20,778 bases of DNA from IMG/VR virus record IMGVR_UViG_3300031746_000210, positions 1 to 20,778 of that record; one strand, given 5' to 3'. Origin of the DNA: a virus. The notes beneath the pieces are model-generated. The model had not been told where the DNA came from. It made no database searches and worked only from the letters and a program-made list of their open reading frames with translations. The stretch's first letter is position 1; each line of letters starts with the position of its first letter. The position numbers were made by a program, and so were the translations under genes. Below, in pieces: positions 877-15,398 of this stretch.

Positions 877-910
877 AGTTTATTTAAATATAAAGTTTAT
901 TTAAATATAA
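877..910. repeat. two perfect tandem copies of a 17-bp AT-only-but-one repeat
   Basis: AGTTTATTTAAATATAA occurs at 877-893 and again, immediately adjacent and identical, at 894-910. The second copy runs over the last codons of the minus-strand gene ending at 901. A copy with one mismatch (AGTTTATTTATATATAA) lies at about 2252-2268, upstream of the small minus gene starting at 2233. All three are therefore next to minus-strand gene boundaries. Confidence 0.8.
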
Positions 911-2022
911 TGACCAAAGTTTTCGTTTATCTCTTTTTGAATATCAGACCAATCTGGATAATCAGGAGTTCTAAAATCTATACATTCAAAATCACCATCG
1001 TAGATTAGTTGTTTCATCAAAGTCGTATAACTACCAAAATAATCTAAATATGAATCTGAATATGATTGGCCTCTATTGTTTTCTAAAAATAAAGTAATGT
1101 CACCAACAAAATTTCTAATTTTAATATAATTTACATATATAGAGTGTTTTTTACCATCTGACATGGTATGTTCTTTTGGGAATTCATCAACTTTACCTTC
1201 AAAGTATTCATCTAAACCATTATATACTAATTCATATATTTCATTTTGATATGCAGAATTATATGCGTTCCAATAAACACTTTGTAATTCTTGACCTAAC
1301 TCACTCAAATCATTTTTACATAGTTCATTTATTGCCTCGGAATCTTTAATTAATTCATTTAAGTCTTCAGGTCCAATTTTAAAATAACCTTCAGTTCCCT
1401 GATCTTCTGATAAGATTTCAAAAAAATCAGAATCATAATCTTCTAAAGATAATTCAACATTACCAATTTCTTTAAAAATAACATCTTTTAAATGGGCGGT
1501 ATTTTTTTCGTCTAAATCATCAATAACTTCAGATGGTTTTGTGTCAACATCAAAATACCAATCGTTACCTAAACCATCTCCGTCAAATATTTGTTTTGCA
1601 ACATCTTCAGGAGAAATGTCACGACGGGAGGAACCACAGAAAAAAGAAGCCAACTCATCTCTATCCTTACCTAAATATAAATAGAACCCATCAGGTCTAA
1701 TTTCAACATCAGTTAAAAGGTTGCTTGTAATATACTTAATAGTATTATCGTAGTTATGTTCTAAACCATGTAGTAAATAATTGTTTATAAACGATTCAGG
1801 AACAGAATCATACTCTAAATTAGATATTATATCACTTTCAACCAAATAATCAAACACTTCATTACTAAAATCATCAGAAGGAATATTATTTATATCTATT
1901 TTATTTAATAAATTTTTTCCTTTTATAAATCTAAAAAAAGTTAAAATTTTTCCATTAAAAATAGAAGATATTTTATCCCAATTACCATCATTAAATTCTT
2001 CTATAATATTGTTTACCGTCAT
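901..2022 (-). CDS. hypothetical acidic protein, 373 aa
   Basis: No family is recognised. The protein is strongly acidic throughout (many DE-rich stretches such as PSEVIDDLDEKN and ELSLEDYDSDFFE) and has no signal peptide or membrane segment. Aromatic and acidic residues alternate near the C-terminus (YSDSYLDYFGSYTTL, then an FRTPDYPDW-type stretch). The start at 2022 (MTVNNIIEEF) is the first ATG after the minus-strand terminator at 2040-2069, which leaves only about 18 bases of leader. A large acidic phage protein could be an internal virion protein, a DNA mimic or an inhibitor, but nothing in the sequence decides between these. Confidence 0.65.
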   Translation of the reverse strand: MTVNNIIEEFNDGNWDKISSIFNGKILTFFRFIKGKNLLNKIDINNIPSDDFSNEVFDYLVESDIISNLEYDSVPESFINNYLLHGLEHNYDNTIKYITSNLLTDVEIRPDGFYLYLGKDRDELASFFCGSSRRDISPEDVAKQIFDGDGLGNDWYFDVDTKPSEVIDDLDEKNTAHLKDVIFKEIGNVELSLEDYDSDFFEILSEDQGTEGYFKIGPEDLNELIKDSEAINELCKNDLSELGQELQSVYWNAYNSAYQNEIYELVYNGLDEYFEGKVDEFPKEHTMSDGKKHSIYVNYIKIRNFVGDITLFLENNRGQSYSDSYLDYFGSYTTLMKQLIYDGDFECIDFRTPDYPDWSDIQKEINENFGHYI

Positions 2023-2316: not shown

Positions 2317-3855
2317 ATGAAAAAAATTATAAAAATTACAGAAAACAAATTAATAAATTTAATAAAAAATATTATTGTTGAAGAATCTGAAAATGATTAC
2401 TTTGAAATTACCCCGGAACAATATCATAAATTGTTGGTATCTGTTAATTTTAATGCAAAAGTTATTTCAAGATTACCAATGTTTAAAGGTAAAAAAATAA
2501 GAGTTAATGGTAATTTGAAATTAAATGGTTTAAGACAAATTACTAGTTTAGGTGATTTAACGGTAAGTGGACAATTAGATATTCCTTATACCGGAATAAA
2601 AAACTTAGACGGGGTAAAATTTGAAAAACTTGGTGCGTATCATATGACACCATATGCTGATGAAATTGAGAAAAAAAGATTAAAACAAGAAAGGGAAGAC
2701 GCTAATGAAAGAAGAATAAATGACGAATGGAATATAAAAAATACAGATGCAATAAGTGAGATGGCAAATGCTGTATTTGAATATATGTACGCAACTGGTG
2801 ATTTATACATATTAGATGATTCAGAACGTGAGGATCTGAAAAATTTTGAAATACAAATGGTGGAACTTGAAGAAAAAATTGATAATGAGGAAGATGATGA
2901 AATTTTAGATGATTTATATACTGAAAGAGATGAGTTAGAAGAAAATATTGACGCCTTAAAGGAAAAAGATAATGATCAATATGGTTTAGTTCCCGAAGAT
3001 CGGCATTCTCACTATAAAATGACAGTATTTAAATCAATTCATGGTGATACAAATGGAAATACTTATGCTGTTGGTACTGAAGGTGAGGTGGATGACTCCA
3101 TTGAAGAATATTATGAAGATATGGTAAATGATTTAAGTAGTTTTGATAAAAGCACACTAAGTAATCACATTGATGGTGAAGATGTGTATGATCATTTTGA
3201 AGATTCGATTCGTGACGATATTTATGAAAATTATGAAGATTATGATATTTCTAAAGAAACTAGTAAAGAACAAGATCAAGAAATAATAAACCTTAAAAAT
3301 GAAAAAAAATCTCTTGAGATAGAAAATTATTTAATTTCAAATGGGGCTAGATCTCCTCTTATTGAAGAAGGAATAGAAAGTATGAAATACTTTAAATTCA
3401 AAGATTATATGAACAATTTATTAGTTGTTGAATGGTCTGACGATAAATGGCAAATTTACCAAAACAATAAAAAGGTTGAGTCAGTAACTTATGAAGATGA
3501 TGATGATGATGATGATGGAGAACATGAATCGGATAATGAATCAAGGATTGAAGAAATTGAGAATAGGGCGGAAGAAATAGATTCTGAAATTGAAGAAATT
3601 GAAGAGAATCCTGATGGAGATTTAAGTGATGATGATATTGAACGAGTTATGGAAGAAAAAAGAGATGAGATAGAGTCTGACCCGATATCTTGGTTGGATG
3701 ATTATGGTATGAACTATGATAATTTTGTTAATACAAGAAGTTTACTACGTGACTTAATTGATGAATCTGACTATAGCGTAATAAGTCATTATGATGGGGA
3801 TTATCAAGAAGTTAATATAAATTCAAATACCTATATTGTATTTAGAACTGACTAA
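2317..3855 (+). CDS. large acidic tagged phage protein with LRR-like segment, 512 aa
   Basis: The N-terminus (MKKIIKITENKLINLIKNII, then VEE) has the form of a short amphipathic tag ending in I-V-E at residue 23. The sigma factor encoded at 10242-10802 starts in a similar way. Residues 50-107 contain leucine-rich-repeat-like phrasing (IRVNGNLKLNGL, LGDLTVSGQLDI, GIKNLDGVKFEKLG). The rest is extremely acidic with several predicted coiled coils (about 170-220, 315-340 and 400-460). It also has a run of seven aspartates (residues 394-400) encoded by seven consecutive GAT codons at 3496-3516. There is no membrane segment. An internal head protein or DNA-mimic role is a reasonable guess from tag and charge, but is not shown. 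Confidence 0.75.
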   Translation: MKKIIKITENKLINLIKNIIVEESENDYFEITPEQYHKLLVSVNFNAKVISRLPMFKGKKIRVNGNLKLNGLRQITSLGDLTVSGQLDIPYTGIKNLDGVKFEKLGAYHMTPYADEIEKKRLKQEREDANERRINDEWNIKNTDAISEMANAVFEYMYATGDLYILDDSEREDLKNFEIQMVELEEKIDNEEDDEILDDLYTERDELEENIDALKEKDNDQYGLVPEDRHSHYKMTVFKSIHGDTNGNTYAVGTEGEVDDSIEEYYEDMVNDLSSFDKSTLSNHIDGEDVYDHFEDSIRDDIYENYEDYDISKETSKEQDQEIINLKNEKKSLEIENYLISNGARSPLIEEGIESMKYFKFKDYMNNLLVVEWSDDKWQIYQNNKKVESVTYEDDDDDDDGEHESDNESRIEEIENRAEEIDSEIEEIEENPDGDLSDDDIERVMEEKRDEIESDPISWLDDYGMNYDNFVNTRSLLRDLIDESDYSVISHYDGDYQEVNINSNTYIVFRTD

Positions 3856-4679: not shown

Positions 4680-4687
4680 AATTGTAT

Positions 4688-5806
4688 ATGAAAGTTAAAT
4701 TAGAATATGTGTGGATCGACGGATATACACCTGAACCAAACCTTAGAAGTAAGGTAAAAATAGTTGATTATCAATCTATTAAGGAAGCGTTTCTTGATGG
4801 AAATTTCCCAATTTGGAACTTTGATGGGTCTTCAACATTACAGGCTGAAACAGGAAGTTCAGATTGTATTTTAAAACCTGTTAGACATTATTTTAAAGAT
4901 ATGGAATCAACCGTATATGTCTTATGTGAGGTATTAAATTCTGATGGGTCACCACACGAGTCAAATAAAAGATCAAGTATTGGTGAAGGTTTTGAAGATC
5001 TTTGGTTTGGTTTTGAACAAGAATACTTTATATACGACAAAAAAAACAAATGCGTTTTAGGTCATGATCAAAACAACTTGGAACCACAAGGTAAATATTA
5101 TTGTGGAGTTGGTCAATATGTTGTTGGAAGAGATTTTGTTGATAAACATTTAAATATGTGTTTAAATTATGGAATTGATATTACAGGAGTTAATGCTGAG
5201 GTTGCGTTAGGACAATGGGAATACCAAGTATTATCTAAAGAAAAATTAAAAAGTGGAGATGATCTTTGGATGACAAGATATTTTCTTTTTAAAACCTCAG
5301 AGAAATATTCATACCACATTGAATTACACCCAAAACCAATTACACATGGTAAATGGAATGGGTCTGGTCTTCATACAAATTTTTCAACAGATATTATGAG
5401 AAATGATGGAAATAAAGAATATTTTATGTCATTGTTTAACGCATTTGAATCAAGACATCGTCAACACATTAAATCTTACGGTTCAAACAATAATTTAAGA
5501 CTTACTGGTGAATACGAAACACAATCAATAGATAAGTTTAGTTGGGGTGTCTCTGATCGAGGAGCATCAATTAGAGTTCCAAAAGAAACCGCAGAGGAAT
5601 GGAAAGGATATCTTGAAGACAGAAGACCAGGATCAAACGCAGACCCATATAAAATTATTTTTGAGATTGTTAAATCACTCCACGAAACAAAACAAATATA
5701 CCGTATAAAAACCATGATGACTAAAAATATTGACACAAATAATCTTAGTGGTAAATATGGTACAATTTCTAATGATGAATTATTAAACGAATATAAAGAA
5801 GAATAA
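4688..5806 (+). CDS. glnII: glutamine synthetase, class II (GSII), 372 aa
   Basis: It should make glutamine from glutamate, ammonia and ATP. The class II signatures are all present and in order: WNFDGSST (43-50), GFEQEY (108-113), NAEVALGQWEYQ (169-180), KPI then WNGSGLHTNFST (216-234), RLTGEYET (271-278) and WGVSDRGASIR (286-296). The length fits GSII (about 350-380) and is far below GSI or GSIII. The ATG at 4688 is preferred over an in-frame TTG two codons upstream. The gene shows no truncation, and the acidic and arginine catalytic positions appear intact, so an active enzyme is likely. It follows a hypothetical gene by 8 bases and overlaps the DUF3310 gene by one base (TAATG), so it is part of a phage operon rather than a host gln locus. 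Recruitment from a cellular source is inferred. Confidence 0.93.
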   Translation: MKVKLEYVWIDGYTPEPNLRSKVKIVDYQSIKEAFLDGNFPIWNFDGSSTLQAETGSSDCILKPVRHYFKDMESTVYVLCEVLNSDGSPHESNKRSSIGEGFEDLWFGFEQEYFIYDKKNKCVLGHDQNNLEPQGKYYCGVGQYVVGRDFVDKHLNMCLNYGIDITGVNAEVALGQWEYQVLSKEKLKSGDDLWMTRYFLFKTSEKYSYHIELHPKPITHGKWNGSGLHTNFSTDIMRNDGNKEYFMSLFNAFESRHRQHIKSYGSNNNLRLTGEYETQSIDKFSWGVSDRGASIRVPKETAEEWKGYLEDRRPGSNADPYKIIFEIVKSLHETKQIYRIKTMMTKNIDTNNLSGKYGTISNDELLNEYKEE

Positions 5807-6448: not shown

Positions 6449-7306
6449 ATGAAAAATTTAGAAGACATTACTGGTAAAATTATTAATGGTAGTTGTATTG
6501 ATGTAATGAAAACATTTCCTGAAGGTTGTGTGGATTTAATTGTAACATCCCCACCCTATGGTGTTGGAATCGATTATGATGTACATGACGATGATGTTGC
6601 GTTTGAGGAGTATATTGAGTTCGCCAAAGATTGGTTAACAGAGGCTTACAAAGTTTTAAAGGATGATGGTCGAATTGCCTTGAATATTCCTTATGAGATC
6701 AATAGACAAACTAAGGGAGGTAGAATTTTATTTCTTTCAGAAATGTGGCAAATTATGAAAGAAATTGGTTATGGTTTCTTTGGTGTTGTGGATCTTGAAG
6801 AAGACTCGCCACATAGAAGTAAAACAACCGCTTGGGGTTCTTGGATGAGTCCTTCTAGTCCATACATTTATAACCCAAAAGAGTGTGTAATTTTAGCGTA
6901 TAAAAAACAACACATTAAAAAGGTAAAAGGTCAACCTGAATGGACAGGTGTTCCAACTGATGTTGAACAAGAAGACGGGACCACCAAAAAGAAAACTGTT
7001 TATGAAGAAAATGATAAGAAAGAGTTCATGGAACTTGTTTTTGGTCAGTGGAATTATTTTGCAGATACTAAGTCAATGACTAAGGCAACATTCTCAATGG
7101 ACATCCCAACAAAGGCAATTAAAATTTTATCGTATAAGAATGATATTGTTTTAGATCCATTTGCTGGTAGCGGAACTAGTTTGGTTGCTGCTGAAATATT
7201 GGGAAGACGTTGGGTTGGAATTGAGTTATCTCCAAATTACGCAAAAATTGCGAAAGATAGAGTTGAACCTTTTAGAATTCAGAAATCACTCTTTAATCAA
7301 AATTGA
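6449..7306 (+). CDS. DNA methyltransferase, beta class (N4-cytosine or N6-adenine), 285 aa
   Basis: It should transfer a methyl group from S-adenosylmethionine to the exocyclic amino group of cytosine or adenine in DNA. The catalytic motif TSPPYG (residues 33-38) comes first and the cofactor-binding motif DPFAGSGTS (236-244) comes near the C-terminus, followed by GRRWVGIELSPNYA; this order defines the beta class (N6_N4_Mtase fold). TSPPY suggests N4-cytosine but does not exclude N6-adenine. No restriction endonuclease is next to it, so it is a solitary phage enzyme that may protect the genome from host restriction. Its last 21 bases overlap the end of the convergent DUF192 gene. Confidence 0.9.
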   Translation: MKNLEDITGKIINGSCIDVMKTFPEGCVDLIVTSPPYGVGIDYDVHDDDVAFEEYIEFAKDWLTEAYKVLKDDGRIALNIPYEINRQTKGGRILFLSEMWQIMKEIGYGFFGVVDLEEDSPHRSKTTAWGSWMSPSSPYIYNPKECVILAYKKQHIKKVKGQPEWTGVPTDVEQEDGTTKKKTVYEENDKKEFMELVFGQWNYFADTKSMTKATFSMDIPTKAIKILSYKNDIVLDPFAGSGTSLVAAEILGRRWVGIELSPNYAKIAKDRVEPFRIQKSLFNQN

Positions 7307-7663: not shown

Positions 7664-8083
7664 ATGAAAAAAAACAAAAGATTTTCTGGAATATTAGTTA
7701 AATGTAATGACAAGGTATTGTTGTGTAAAAGAAGTAGTGACAACACAATGCCAAATCAATGGTCAATCCCTGGTGGGGGAATAGAAGATGGTGAAACACC
7801 TGAAGAGGCTGCTCGTAGGGAATTTTTTGAGGAAACAAATATTAAAATCAACGATAAATTAAATTTGGTTGGGTTTGTTGATAGATTTAACAAAGACGGT
7901 ACCTACCTAAAAGGTTTTATGTATGTCTATGGTCTTGAGGTTGAAGATAAGATATATCCAGATCTAGATAACGCAAAAGATGGTGGGGAACATAGTGAGT
8001 GTGGATATTATAGTATTGATGAATTACCAATTACAAATAAAACAGATGAATTTTATAAAATAATTGTTAAAAATTTACAATAA
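7664..8083 (+). CDS. Nudix hydrolase, 139 aa
   Basis: It should hydrolyse a nucleoside diphosphate linked to another group (such as oxidised dNTPs, NADH, ADP-ribose or capped RNA); the substrate cannot be told from sequence. The Nudix box is complete at residues 38-60: G38, E44 and REFFEETNI (52-60), with the metal-binding RExxEE intact and Asn replacing the usual final glycine. The preceding WSIPGGGIEDGE is also typical. The length is normal. It starts 21 bases from the divergent DUF192 gene and is followed by a strong terminator at 8176-8220. In phages such enzymes can adjust nucleotide pools or remove RNA caps. Confidence 0.92.
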   Translation: MKKNKRFSGILVKCNDKVLLCKRSSDNTMPNQWSIPGGGIEDGETPEEAARREFFEETNIKINDKLNLVGFVDRFNKDGTYLKGFMYVYGLEVEDKIYPDLDNAKDGGEHSECGYYSIDELPITNKTDEFYKIIVKNLQ

Positions 8084-10230: not shown

Positions 10231-10259
10231 AAAGGGGAAGATTAGTCTTCCCTTTTTTT
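10231..10259 (+). terminator. intrinsic terminator overlapping the end of the sigma gene
   Basis: AAAGGGGAAGA (10231-10241) pairs with TCTTCCCTTTT (10246-10256), including one G-U pair, around the loop TTAG, and runs into seven T. The stop codon of the minus-strand sigma factor gene (10242-10244) lies in the loop, so the hairpin also forms at the 3' end of that transcript. Confidence 0.85.
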
Positions 10260-10802
10260 GTTTAAATTAATTAGGTATTGTTTTATTTTTATTTTTGCTT
10301 TAAATAAATTAGATTTTGATGTACCTTCACTAATCCCTAATTCGTCGGCAATTTCTTGATGTGACATATCTTCAAAGAAGAACATTTCAAATACTTTTTT
10401 TTGTGAAGGATATAAAGTTTCAACTGCATCTTTAATCTCTTTTGATGAATATAAACTTTCTTTTGGAGTGTCGTCAATTACTTCTAAATTTACTCGTTCA
10501 AAATCAATAGGGTTTTTGTATGGACTTCTTTTTTCTTTTTTCCATTCATCAATTACTGTATTTGTGATTACACGTTTTGCCCAAGCCTCAATAGGTCCTG
10601 ACTCATTGTACATACTAATTTTTTGATATACTTTAATGAACCCTAATTGACAAAAATCATTTGCTTTTTCTTCATCTCCATTTGCGTATTTTAAACAAAC
10701 TTGTCGATACATTTTTGGGTATAAAGATTTATATAGTGAATTAAAATCAACTACCTCATTTAATAATGTTGAATATTGGGATTCAGTTAAAATAATTTTC
10801 AT
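10242..10802 (-). CDS. ECF-like sigma-70 family factor with N-terminal tag, 186 aa
   Basis: Region 2 (about residues 24-92) contains DFCQLGFIKVYQKI and WAKRVITNTVIDEWKKEKR, the core-binding and -10-binding helices. Region 4 (about 126-178) contains LYPSQKKVFEMFFFEDMSHQ and EIADELGISEGTSKSNLFKA, the helix-turn-helix that reads -35. Regions 1 and 3 are absent, as in ECF sigma factors. It should redirect host RNA polymerase to phage promoters. The first 16 residues, MKIILTESQYSTLLNE, are extra to the family and resemble the start of the acidic protein encoded at 2317. It is the only minus gene nearby and is divergent from the kinase gene at 10850. No anti-sigma gene is adjacent. Confidence 0.9.
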   Translation of the reverse strand: MKIILTESQYSTLLNEVVDFNSLYKSLYPKMYRQVCLKYANGDEEKANDFCQLGFIKVYQKISMYNESGPIEAWAKRVITNTVIDEWKKEKRSPYKNPIDFERVNLEVIDDTPKESLYSSKEIKDAVETLYPSQKKVFEMFFFEDMSHQEIADELGISEGTSKSNLFKAKIKIKQYLINLNKKRED

Positions 10803-12603: not shown

Positions 12604-14460
12604 ATGGGAAAAATTATTGGAATTGATTTAGGAACAACAAATTCGTGTGTTGCCGTTATGGAAGGAAACGAACCTGTAGTTATAACAAATAGTGAAGGTA
12701 AACGAACAACACCATCCGTTATTGGATTTATTACAGATGGAGAAAGAAAAATTGGAGATCCGGCTAAACGACAAGCTGTAACCAATCCGGATAAAACTAT
12801 TAGTTCAATTAAACGTTTTATGGGGACAAGTTTTGATGAATCTAAAAAAGAGATTAAAAAAGTACCGTATAAGATTGTTAAAGGTGATGGAGGATCTCCA
12901 AGAGTTGAAATAGATAAACGACAATATTCACCACAAGAAATATCGGCAATGGTACTTCAAAAGATGAAACAAACTGCTGAGGATTATTTGGGTGAAACGG
13001 TAACTCAGGCGGTTATTACCGTACCGGCATATTTTAACGATGCTCAACGACAAGCAACTAAAGAGGCAGGTGAAATTGCGGGTTTAGAAGTAAAACGTAT
13101 TATTAACGAACCTACCGCAGCGGCATTAGCTTATGGTTTAGATAAAATGTCTAAAGATATGGTAGTTGTGGTTTTTGACTGTGGTGGTGGTACTCACGAT
13201 GTGTCCATTCTTGAATTAGGTGACGGAGTGTTTGAAGTATTATCAACTGATGGTGATACTCATTTAGGTGGTGATGACTTTGATCAAACAATCATCGATT
13301 GGTTAGTAAGTGAATTCAAAGAAGAGAACGGTCTTGATTTAACTCAGGATCCAATGGCATTACAAAGATTACGTGAGGCGGCTGAGAAGGCAAAAGTTGA
13401 ATTATCTTCAACCTCATCAAGTGAGATCAATTTACCTTATATTATGCCTGTGGACGGTATTCCAAAACATTTGGTAAGAACATTATCAAAATCTAAATTT
13501 GAACAGTTAGTTGATTCTTTGGTTAAAAGAACAATTGAACCTTGTAAGAAGGCATTAAAAAATGCTAAGATGAAGGTTTCTGATGTTGATGAAATTATCT
13601 TGGTTGGTGGTACAACAAGAATTCCAGCAATACAAGATGCAGTTAAACAATTCTTTGGTAAGGAACCTTCTAAAGGTGTTAACCCTGATGAGGTAGTTGC
13701 GTTAGGTGCAGCAATCCAAGGAGGTGTGTTAGCTGGTGATGTTAAAGATGTCTTATTATTAGATGTAACCCCATTATCTTTAGGTATTGAAACTATGGGT
13801 GGAGTTATGACTAAATTGATTGAGTCTAACACCACAATCCCGACTAAAAAATCTCAGGTGTTCTCAACGGCGGTGGATAATCAACCAACAGTTGAGATCC
13901 ACGTACTTCAGGGGGAAAGAGCAATGTCAACCGATAATAAAACTATTGGTAAATTCAACTTAGATGGTCTTCCACCGGCAATGAGAGGTGTTCCACAAAT
14001 TGAAGTTACGTTTGATATTGATGCAAATGGAATTATCAATGTGTCAGCGATAGATAAAGGAACAAACAAACAACAAACAATTCGTATTGAGGCATCTTCT
14101 GGATTATCAAAAGAAGAGATTGCGAAAATGAAACAAGAAGCTGAGTTAAATTCTGAACAAGACAAAAAACTAAGAGAAGATGCTGAAGTTATAAATAGAG
14201 CGGACGGTACAATATTTCAAACTGAAAAATCAATCAAAGATTTAGATGAAAAATTAACCGAAGATCAAAAAACCGAACTTAATACGGCACTTGAAAGTTT
14301 AAAAGAATCTTACGGTAAAAAAGATATTGAGAAGATTGAAAATGATATCAATGATCTTAATACTAAATTTCAAAATATTAGTCAATTATTGTACGAACAA
14401 ACAACAACAGAAGAAGAAAATAGTAAACCATCTGATGTTGAGTTTGAAGAGGTAATCTAA
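12604..14460 (+). CDS. dnaK: DnaK (Hsp70 chaperone), 618 aa
   Basis: It is an ATP-driven chaperone that binds and releases unfolded segments. The nucleotide-binding domain is complete: [10 protein letters not shown] (6-15), AKRQAVTNP (54-62), the lysine K70, [11 protein letters not shown] and [11 protein letters not shown]. The linker DVLLLD is at 382-387, followed by a beta substrate-binding domain and a helical lid, ending in EFEEVI-like residues. Its sequence is of Bacteroidetes type. The phosphate-2 loop reads D192-C-GGG-T-H-D199, where cellular DnaK has DLGGGTFD, so Cys193 and His198 replace Leu and Phe while Thr197 and Asp199 remain. No dnaJ or grpE lies in the window, so it presumably uses host cofactors. 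It may fold virion proteins. Acquisition from a host is likely. Confidence 0.97.
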
Positions 14461-14843: not shown

Positions 14844-15398
14844 ATGGTAAAAGAAATTAATAATTTTTTATCTGATGAAGAATGTAATGAATTAATAAAT
14901 TTATCTTCAGATAGTTTTGATAATGCTGAGTTACTTGGTGAAAATATTGATGGATATAGAGTAGCAAAAGGAACTTGGTTAGAGGAAGAAGATGGTGAAG
15001 TTGTTATTAAATATAGAAAACTTATTTCAGAAATAACACAAATACCCACAATTAATATGGAAAGTATTAATGTTTTAAAATATGATATTGGAGGAGAATA
15101 TAAAGATCATCATGATTTTTTTCATCCTAACGAAAATTATTATAATGATGAAATAAAAAGAGGGGGACAAAGATTAAAAACAGGTTTAGTTTATTTAAAT
15201 GATAATTTTGAAGGAGGTGAAACATCATTTCCAAACCTAAATATTAAAATAGTCCCCAAAAAAGGAAAACTTGTATTATGGGATAACATAAAAGATGACG
15301 GTTCTTTAGATTATGATAGTATCCACGCTGGTTTACCTGTAACAAATGGTTTTAAATATATTGCGGTTATTTGGATTAGAGAAAATAAATTTTACTAA
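14844..15398 (+). CDS. 2-oxoglutarate/Fe(II) oxygenase, prolyl-4-hydroxylase-like, 184 aa
   Basis: It should use 2-oxoglutarate, oxygen and iron to hydroxylate a target, probably a protein side chain. The metal-binding set is present: H89 and D91 in YKDHHDFF, and H161 in SIHAGLPV, with K171 ten residues later to hold 2-oxoglutarate (HAGLPVTNGFKY). GGETSFPNL (124-132) and the ending IAVIWIREN are typical. The ATG at 14844 is chosen over an upstream ATG at 14778, which lies inside the preceding gene and adds unrelated residues. Related oxygenases occur in cyanophages. Neither substrate nor target is evident. Confidence 0.88.
   Translation: MVKEINNFLSDEECNELINLSSDSFDNAELLGENIDGYRVAKGTWLEEEDGEVVIKYRKLISEITQIPTINMESINVLKYDIGGEYKDHHDFFHPNENYYNDEIKRGGQRLKTGLVYLNDNFEGGETSFPNLNIKIVPKKGKLVLWDNIKDDGSLDYDSIHAGLPVTNGFKYIAVIWIRENKFY

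Follow-up and report, generated by a model that had tools for sequence, protein, structure and literature searches.

Leader-bearing proteins of the window

The stretch of viral DNA analyzed here (IMG/VR record IMGVR_UViG_3300031746_000210, the whole record of 20,778 bases, referred to below as the window) encodes an acidic protein and a sigma factor that are otherwise unrelated and start with a similar short peptide, the leader. The leader is a modular, N-terminal element, is viral and not prokaryotic as judged by one search pattern, usually ends in the motif (I/L)-x-E of the T4 prohead protease gp21, and occurs together with Peptidase_S77/Gp23 head modules. The open reading frame (ORF) of the acidic protein runs from 2317 to 3855 on the plus strand (512 amino acids) and its N-terminus reads MKKIIKITENKLINLIKNIIVE↓ESEN, where the arrow marks the junction between leader and body. 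Its leader, which we call type A, comprises residues 1-22 (2317..2382, +) and is predicted to be removed after Glu22, to leave a predicted mature protein of residues 23-512 (2383..3855, +), whose family is also found in four genomes with T4-type head genes (G010, G032, G033 and G034). The ORF of the sigma factor occupies 10242-10802 on the minus strand (186 amino acids) and its product starts with MKIILTESQYSTLLNE↓VVDF. In this case the leader (type B) consists of residues 1-16 (10755..10802, -), with predicted removal after Glu16, and the predicted mature sigma factor, of the extracytoplasmic function (ECF) type, of residues 17-186 (10242..10754, -, stop included).

A first-pass annotation of the window had described both ORFs and the likeness of their N-termini, and translation of the window confirms this observation. 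It had also put both proteins under one start, MK-(K)-I-I-x-(I/L)-T-E. A common core is indeed present in both, but the sigma factor reads MK-II-L-T-E and lacks the extra 'x', and the two proteins therefore represent two subtypes, A and B, of the core M..(I/L/V)(T/S)E..(L/Y). With respect to the mature proteins, the residue count agrees with the proposed start of the sigma factor at Val17 and shifts that of the acidic protein from Glu24 to Glu23. The first motif pattern that was used, which predated the recognition of the subtypes, gave 0 matches within the window.

The protein encoded at 10242-10802 is a clear ECF-type sigma-70 factor, with Sigma70_r2 at residues 24-92 (E 4.5e-12) and Sigma70_r4_2 at residues 122-172 (E 3.7e-15), both over the Pfam cut-off, and phrog_1740 at residues 18-177. 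The ECF sigma factors of crAss-like phages (phrog_1740) have the same sigma-70 regions and the annotated relatives listed are ~26-32% identical, whereas the homologues in cr55_1, cr124_1 and cr6_1 start without this leader, and a search of the three records for S77 was negative. Among large records, the sigma factor was found in G001 and in none of 20 others (1/21). A structural model made with nine close sequences is poor (mean predicted local distance difference test score, pLDDT, of 59; block means of 35-40 over residues 1-20), and has the sigma helices begin at residue 20.

Neither Pfam nor PHROG yielded a match to the acidic protein (E 0.1), and a tblastn search of annotated phages was likewise negative. 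A fold search returned one strong match, to an uncharacterised phage protein, and nothing significant in the PDB (best E-value 0.15). In its AlphaFold model the leader forms a helix at residues 9-23 (block-mean pLDDT 55-61, dropping to less than 50 at residues 21-25), and the body is modelled with confidence from around residue 31 (block mean 92). Leader-bearing homologues of the window protein are present in G010 and G034. A short leader may also be present on a third protein of the window, given the I-x-E ends on the product of 901-2022 (-), which begins MTVNNIIEE↓FNDGNWDKI, and on its G010 homologue, which begins MKPHLQEYIDE↓FNNGEFDDL.

Spread and classes of the leader

The DNA pattern that was used for retrieval spans only the first 12 residues of the leader. 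It matched 67 stretches of viral contigs and gave 0 matches in 84,980 bacterial and archaeal genomes, on which ground a cellular motif was rejected for this one exact pattern. The 67 stretches encode 67 products of 54-512 amino acids, a few of them clipped by contig ends; 50 are distinct in their first 60 residues and nine belong to the acidic family of the window. In 64 of the 67 products an [IL]xE ends at residues 20-28, outside the reach of the retrieval pattern. Among annotated phages, a tblastn search with one leader returned no match, and a search with a longer leader a single weak match in LR756508.

A looser search with the core recovered 410 ORFs in related uncultured phages, a count that comprises chance matches (~0.5% of 6255 ORFs) and to which overlapping loci may contribute. 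The bodies behind the leader fall into 177 clusters, 59 of which occur in more than one locus or record. A shared domain or paralogy was rejected on the basis of this spread, and the motif, the absence of which from other proteins the first-pass annotation had named as evidence against its proposal, is in fact found on many unrelated proteins, including otherwise unrelated proteins of one phage. Leader-bearing paralogues do occur: G034 encodes several that start with MKIIITENQYKLIKENISLKEKL... (e.g. at 78977, 166712, 239222, 242222 and 283644), one of them inside the head module, two genes ahead of that for the prohead protease.

The leaders can be divided into classes. Type A has the consensus MKKIIRLTESDLTRIVKRVINE directly before the junction and type B, which includes the sigma factor, MK(I/Y)IITES(Q/R)(L/Y)...; class C reads MNLQENIHRI.QMMGVI.E↓ and class D MKELI(R/K)(R/K)ILRE↓E. 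The leader of the acidic protein counts 22 residues and that of the sigma factor 16; the long form reaches up to 26.

Since many loci were found via the leader, three large records that had been retrieved by capsid or protease similarity only (G032, G033 and G034) were taken as a fair sample. The core is present at the start of 23/416, 23/385 and 28/376 of their ORFs, respectively, and at 6/1252, 6/1089 and 6/1132 of their internal methionines (~0.5%), which makes the N-terminal rate around ten times the internal one. In three crAss-like records, where no S77 was found, the core occurred at background level (4/410 ORFs versus 7/799 internal methionines) and class C or D leaders were not found. 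Chance as the source of the motif was rejected by these two controls. Class D starts were found on 3/416 (G032), 5/385 (G033), 10/376 (G034) and 5/390 (G010) ORFs, as compared to 0/1337, 0/1180, 0/1194 and 1/1351 internal methionines, and the combined matches to the core, class C or class D amount to 30/416, 30/385, 39/376 and 32/390 ORFs in the same order. A mixed sample gave the core in 263/3995 ORFs and at 55/13,764 internal methionines; as it blends leader-selected and unselected loci, the argument against chance is carried by the three unselected genomes. The false positives of the core amount to ~0.5% of ORFs, an example being L135, which on visual inspection looks like an IscA-like iron-sulphur protein. 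Another probable chance match to the core is the G033 superoxide dismutase, whose leader is of a different kind.

The similarity between leaders might also represent a nucleic-acid signal, like a translation start enhancer or a recombination site, or the trace of a recent gene duplication. Within a genome the DNA of the leader is 67-74% identical, as compared to 30-32% over the following 84 bases, and signals in the start region are conceivable because Bacteroidetes usually lack Shine-Dalgarno sequences (excerpt of PMC9723584). On the other hand, identical leader residues are specified by differing codons in 114/389 (29%, G034), 66/138 (48%, G016) and 127/219 (58%, G005) cases, the sequences ahead of the ATG resemble each other only weakly (28-31% at -60..-31 and 37-43% at -30..-1), and differing leader sequences replace each other on the same body. 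The conserved entity is, to judge from the codons, the peptide rather than the DNA, and we consider an explanation at the level of the nucleic acid highly improbable.

Head machinery and cargo

The first-pass annotation had held that the lack of a prohead protease would speak against its proposal. Such a protease, the T4-type Peptidase_S77, is encoded in 13 of the 31 leader-bearing records that were searched. Gp23 was found in 12 of the 31, all of which have S77 as well. The 18 records without S77 also yielded no Gp23 and no T4 portal, and for that reason seem to be pieces that lack the head module; 14 of them are shorter than 110 kb. G010 holds Gp23, Peptidase_S77 and the T4 portal together, and G032, G033 and G034 each match the profiles of S77 and of the portal and have a capsid ORF. 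In G034 (162873-165968, L366) the portal frame measures 1031 amino acids, as compared to ~600-620 in G010, G032 and G033, and the profile match is interrupted by an additional coding segment of ~1.3 kb that might be an intein. The 106-kb relative of the window, G001, is collinear with the head-gene-bearing G010 (308 kb). By this collinearity and by the homologues of the acidic protein, the phage of the window can be tied indirectly to T4-type head machinery. On the proposed reading it would also have a protease of its own.

The motif is found on the head proteins themselves. The capsid N-termini contain LI[NY]E↓(A/S) in 82 of 82 distinct sequences (best 80 loci of each search), at the position of FLTE↓A in T4 gp23. 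Likewise, 87 of 88 distinct protease starts, which were picked by motif, have an [IL]xE before the GRxYP motif; residues 16-20 are GIL(V/I)E or GVLIE in 13 of the 14 protease N-termini printed, comparable to LLIE at residues 6-9 of T4 gp21. The T4 controls fit the motif as well (ipII/ipIII, MKTYQEFIAE↓A; gp23, SFLTE↓A). These data bear on the idea that the leader is unrelated to the head and directs proteins elsewhere during infection, for instance to the host membrane, a replication compartment or RNA polymerase. A sigma factor and cell-wall-active cargo could indeed act in infection while unpackaged, and packaging is deduced here from sequence. Nevertheless, the motif at the end of the leader is that of the prohead protease, head-core proteins (protease, scaffold) have [IL]xE near the N-terminus, and some leader-bearing genes lie inside or beside the head module (G005, G032, G033 and G034); none were seen among the listed head genes of G010. 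An address unrelated to the head is thus quite improbable, slightly less so than an explanation at the level of the nucleic acid. Among the families located by head genes, the RYMFFSNLEQ family (e.g. L214, L233, L302, G032:35396 and G033:73672) has a type A leader, a class D leader or none.

With respect to the host, the head module of G010 contains a reverse-strand bS21 gene between portal and protease, an arrangement that has been reported for phages predicted to infect Bacteroidetes (excerpt of PMC9723584), in keeping with the link to Bacteroidetes phages made in the first-pass annotation. An isolate, Flavobacterium phage immuto (NC_055915), is more distantly related and encodes an S77 and a Gp23 of its own. 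It has three kinds of shared leaders, mostly with [IL]-x-E, which differ from those of the window: a start like MENFDLKKFLVEN on four proteins, an MKKS(Q/E)-type start on four ([IL]xE in 3/4), and MKKQILSEQF.RMQ.LAGIITE↓S on two. Candidate (I/L)-x-E ends are seen in MENFDLKKFLVEN..., MKKSQLRQIIKE↓A and ...AGIITE↓S. The N-terminal sharing amounts to 26 pairs in immuto versus 4 in a control window, by a method that also catches ordinary signal peptides. The immuto genome further encodes queuosine-type DNA modification genes and GroEL/GroES.

An inventory of the cargo was made from 154 usable representatives, 140 of which were scanned (on inspection, nine were set aside as likely chance matches, and the output lacked five more). 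At E 0.001 these 140 contained 21 Pfam families, mostly with a single member, including the sigma-70 regions, Fe/Mn superoxide dismutase, phage lysozyme (2 members), peptidoglycan-binding (2), LysM, L,D-transpeptidase/Tlde1, OmpA, DUF5856 and others. The superoxide dismutase and a few other cargo proteins may be chance matches to the core. Most of the leader-bearing bodies lack a named domain, and many of the genes are small and arranged in arrays, a pattern that would be expected of hypervariable internal head proteins. Two 512-amino-acid proteins (L038:5679-7217, -; L039:853-2391, +) resemble the G033 superoxide dismutase in their first part, are about twice the length of the G033 form, and have 30-residue leaders ending in LINE/LITE.

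Elsewhere, the window encodes a NUDIX hydrolase (7664-8083, +), an N6/N4 DNA methylase (6449-7306, +), DnaK/Hsp70 (12604-14460, +), glutamine synthetase (4682-5806, +) and a 2OG-Fe(II) oxygenase (14844-15398, +). An S78 protease was not found in the window.

The junction and its interpretation

The end of the type A leader was analyzed with one member per body cluster (92 clusters). A Glu is present at T+14 in 77 of these, counted from the Thr of the core, and at T+18 in 11 more (88/92), and conservation drops within two residues past this junction Glu. Two positions before it, at P3, the 88 clusters have Ile/Leu in 75 cases, Val in 7 and Met in 6, although the same face of the helix is Val-rich elsewhere (position 8: 23 I/L, 65 V). 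Of the 263 core-bearing ORFs of the mixed sample, 193 show an [IL]xE no more than 32 residues further on, and in 164 of the 193 the Glu stands at 10-11, 14-15 or 19 (T = 1), three spacings that lie around four residues apart. The leader of the sigma factor has I/L-N-E at residues 14-16, as LLNE↓V or IINE↓G, in all 15 loci found (8 of which are 95-100% identical), and this second [IL]xE, at T+10, is kept in 15/15. All seven aligned members of the acidic family, some from records that have head genes and others from records that lack them, carry an [IL]-x-E at the junction (7/7), and only three of these (window, L360 and L102) have an intact core. L069 has INE in place of the core motif and L335 LTN for LTE, whereas the core is missing from the shrunken leaders of L354 (MNYHLKKILKSIISE↓Q) and L137 (MKFSMIKGILPE↓Q). 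That the junction motif is kept while the leader is changed or shrunk favors the view that the conserved site lies at the junction and not at the internal LTE. An (I/L)-x-E at the junction thus characterizes type A, the acidic family and the sigma factor, and 14/43 clusters of type B as a class.

Particular bodies are found behind different leaders. The body that begins GLHDTSW has a type A leader ending in ...RVINE in G002 and a class C leader, MNLQENIHRIKQMMGVINE, ending in VINE in G010 and G032. A protein of ~420 amino acids encoded near the terminase, whose body begins AP(I/V).Y..GPERM, follows leaders of 9-43 residues, for example ...NKIINE↓APIDYDGPERM, MAKYRTIKE↓APIDYEGPERM and MKKKIIVRE↓APIDYG. 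In a set chosen by regular expression, an (I/L/V)-x-E directly precedes this GPERM body in 19 of 20 distinct forms (17 I/L, 2 V) and TKE in one; L197, from outside that set, has TRE. Similarly, a 410-amino-acid family beginning (A/S/R)LGVP(D/E) occurs as MKNIIITENHLRYITE↓ALGVPDN (with the end LRYITE), MKKRIHE↓SLGVPEN and MKKILNE↓RLGVPDG, and the superoxide dismutase body starts at Met after three leaders (...FFLTE↓M, ...LLINE↓M and ...LLITE↓M).

Taken together, the motif, its position, the swaps and the capsid protein suggest that S77 cuts at the junction. The interpretation of the first-pass annotation, a T4-type capsid-targeting peptide, is supported to the extent that we consider it probable that the shared N-terminus is an exchangeable T4-type capsid-targeting propeptide, which would be cut by the prohead protease and carried by a cargo that includes the sigma factor; packaging and cutting are deduced from sequence comparison. 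The competing explanation with most merit, though still unlikely, is that the leader is a helix that docks to the prohead core (or another phage structure) and stays uncut, its Glu being kept for reasons of helix or contact. The TES(E/D/Q) start resembles a helix capping box, which could account for the conserved Thr and Glu without cleavage, a Glu near the end is missing from many type B leaders, and a T4 targeting peptide with Asp at position 10 is not processed, yet still targets (excerpt of PMC9026906). Against an uncut helix stand the junction (I/L/V)-x-E that the GPERM body keeps despite its differing leaders, the preference at P3 for I/L over V, unlike other hydrophobic positions, and the presence of the motif in the major capsid protein where T4 gp23 is cut.

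Several observations weigh against a packaged and cleaved propeptide. In type A, Glu is lacking at both T+14 and T+18 in 4/92 clusters, and V or M is found at P3 in 13 of the 77 clusters with a Glu at T+14. The Fisher p of 4e-19 for the P3 preference overstates independence, because the leaders are related by descent. Only 14/43 clusters of type B have a second [IL]xE at T+9 or T+10 (0-3 at other positions), and the LTE/ITE within the leader also fits the motif, so that a cut could fall earlier. In 58 comparisons of a leader-bearing protein with a core-less one, the partner was leaderless in 29, had an in-register (I/L/V)-x-E in 16 and had none in 13 (these 13 include the T-(R/K)-E forms of the GPERM body in L197, L220 and L230, and in several of them an (I/L/V)-x-E lies 1-3 residues away), which means that the junction motif is out of register in 13/29 leader-versus-leader comparisons, a count that also fits an uncut helix. 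Out of 33 families in which the best pair of a leader-bearing protein and a core-less homologue was taken, 20 align through the diverged leader; of the other 13, 4 lack a definable Glu, 6 start within 6 residues of the Glu (<=6) and 3 do not (+11, -9, +15). In a leader-blind test of ORF families, an in-register [IL]xE was not enriched at points of N-terminal divergence: 9/100 by family versus 13, 14, 9 and 7 in downstream windows. By pairs the score was 485/1637 versus 50, 251, 26 and 29, with two families supplying 461 of the 485. Over whole genomes, N-terminal [IL]xE shows a weak excess in G016 (z 2.5) and none in G001 (z 0.1). As the junctions in the comparisons are not uniform, the claim of a junction motif kept through leader exchange is limited to particular leader-bearing bodies. 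At the level of the head, no S77 or T4 portal was found in the window and its close relatives G001-G004 (incomplete contigs, G001 up to 106 kb), and no Gp23 in G001-G004, the window itself not having been searched for Gp23. Tenacibaculum phage PTm1, in which S77 is present, revealed no shared leaders (9 pairs, control 8). Finally, the accessible part of the open-licence literature yielded no virion proteomics or N-terminomic data for this lineage; mass-spectrometry data for immuto were not found either, the main text of PMC7077304 containing neither 'immuto' nor 'mass spectrometry'.

The leaders described here would be capsid-targeting propeptides like those of T4, with several interchangeable classes per genome. 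The propeptides of T4 internal proteins (IPI, IPII, IPIII) are likewise short N-terminal peptides on unrelated bodies with an (I/L)-x-E junction, and the related genomes share with T4 the S77 protease, Gp23 and the portal; according to the excerpt of PMC9026906, T4 propeptides measure 10-19 residues and are cut by gp21 after L/I-X-E. The leaders differ from the T4 peptide in sequence, as by eye only M-K and (I/L)-x-E are common with MKTYQEFIAE, and common descent is not claimed. They also differ in length, 16-26 versus 10-19 residues, the 16 of the sigma leader falling within the T4 range. The range of 10-19 is a description of T4 and need not apply to other phages. Further differences are the occurrence of several classes per genome, the presence of recognisable enzymes and a sigma factor among the cargo, and the number of matching ORFs, 30-39 of 376-416 per genome (G010, G032-G034), as compared to three internal proteins named for T4 in the excerpt. 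Encapsulin cargo-loading peptides are similar in that they are short and direct a protein into a proteinaceous shell, and different in that they are mostly C-terminal and uncut. In the giant phages phiKZ, SPN3US and 201phi2-1 many head proteins are cleaved after Glu by the prohead protease, and their ejection proteins thus resemble the present case in the Glu-directed cleavage motif; for phiKZ this motif is S/A-X-E, and the excerpt does not mention a shared leader peptide for giant-phage ejection proteins (PMC9026906). A search of titles and abstract starts in the open-licence literature, including the strings LTESEL, LTESDL and LTESQL, gave no paper describing these leaders, which is no proof of novelty as it covered open-licence PMC papers.

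By analogy with T4, the leader of 16-26 residues (likely a short strand and an amphipathic helix) would dock the cargo into the scaffold core of the prohead, after which the gp21-like S77 prohead protease would remove it after the junction (I/L)-x-E. The freed body would stay in the head and enter the host with the DNA. For the window the cargo would be the acidic protein and the ECF sigma factor, and the injected sigma factor might redirect the host RNA polymerase at once or early, which is the weakest step of this scheme. In its broadest form, the proposal is that a large T4-type giant-phage lineage, probably of Bacteroidetes, loads dozens of proteins per head by means of interchangeable, protease-removed peptides, and that its injected proteome, including a reprogramming sigma factor and superoxide dismutase, can be read from N-termini; this we favor by a narrow margin over its negation.

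Injected phage proteins are normally learned by virion proteomics, phage by phage. If the leaders are capsid-targeting propeptides, sequence alone would yield a list of candidate injected proteins for a large uncultured lineage, which in each of four genomes comprises 30-39 of 376-416 ORFs (core, C or D). Anti-defence and take-over proteins would be expected among the leader-bearing bodies. A packaged phage sigma factor, if true, would represent a direct route to immediate control of host transcription.

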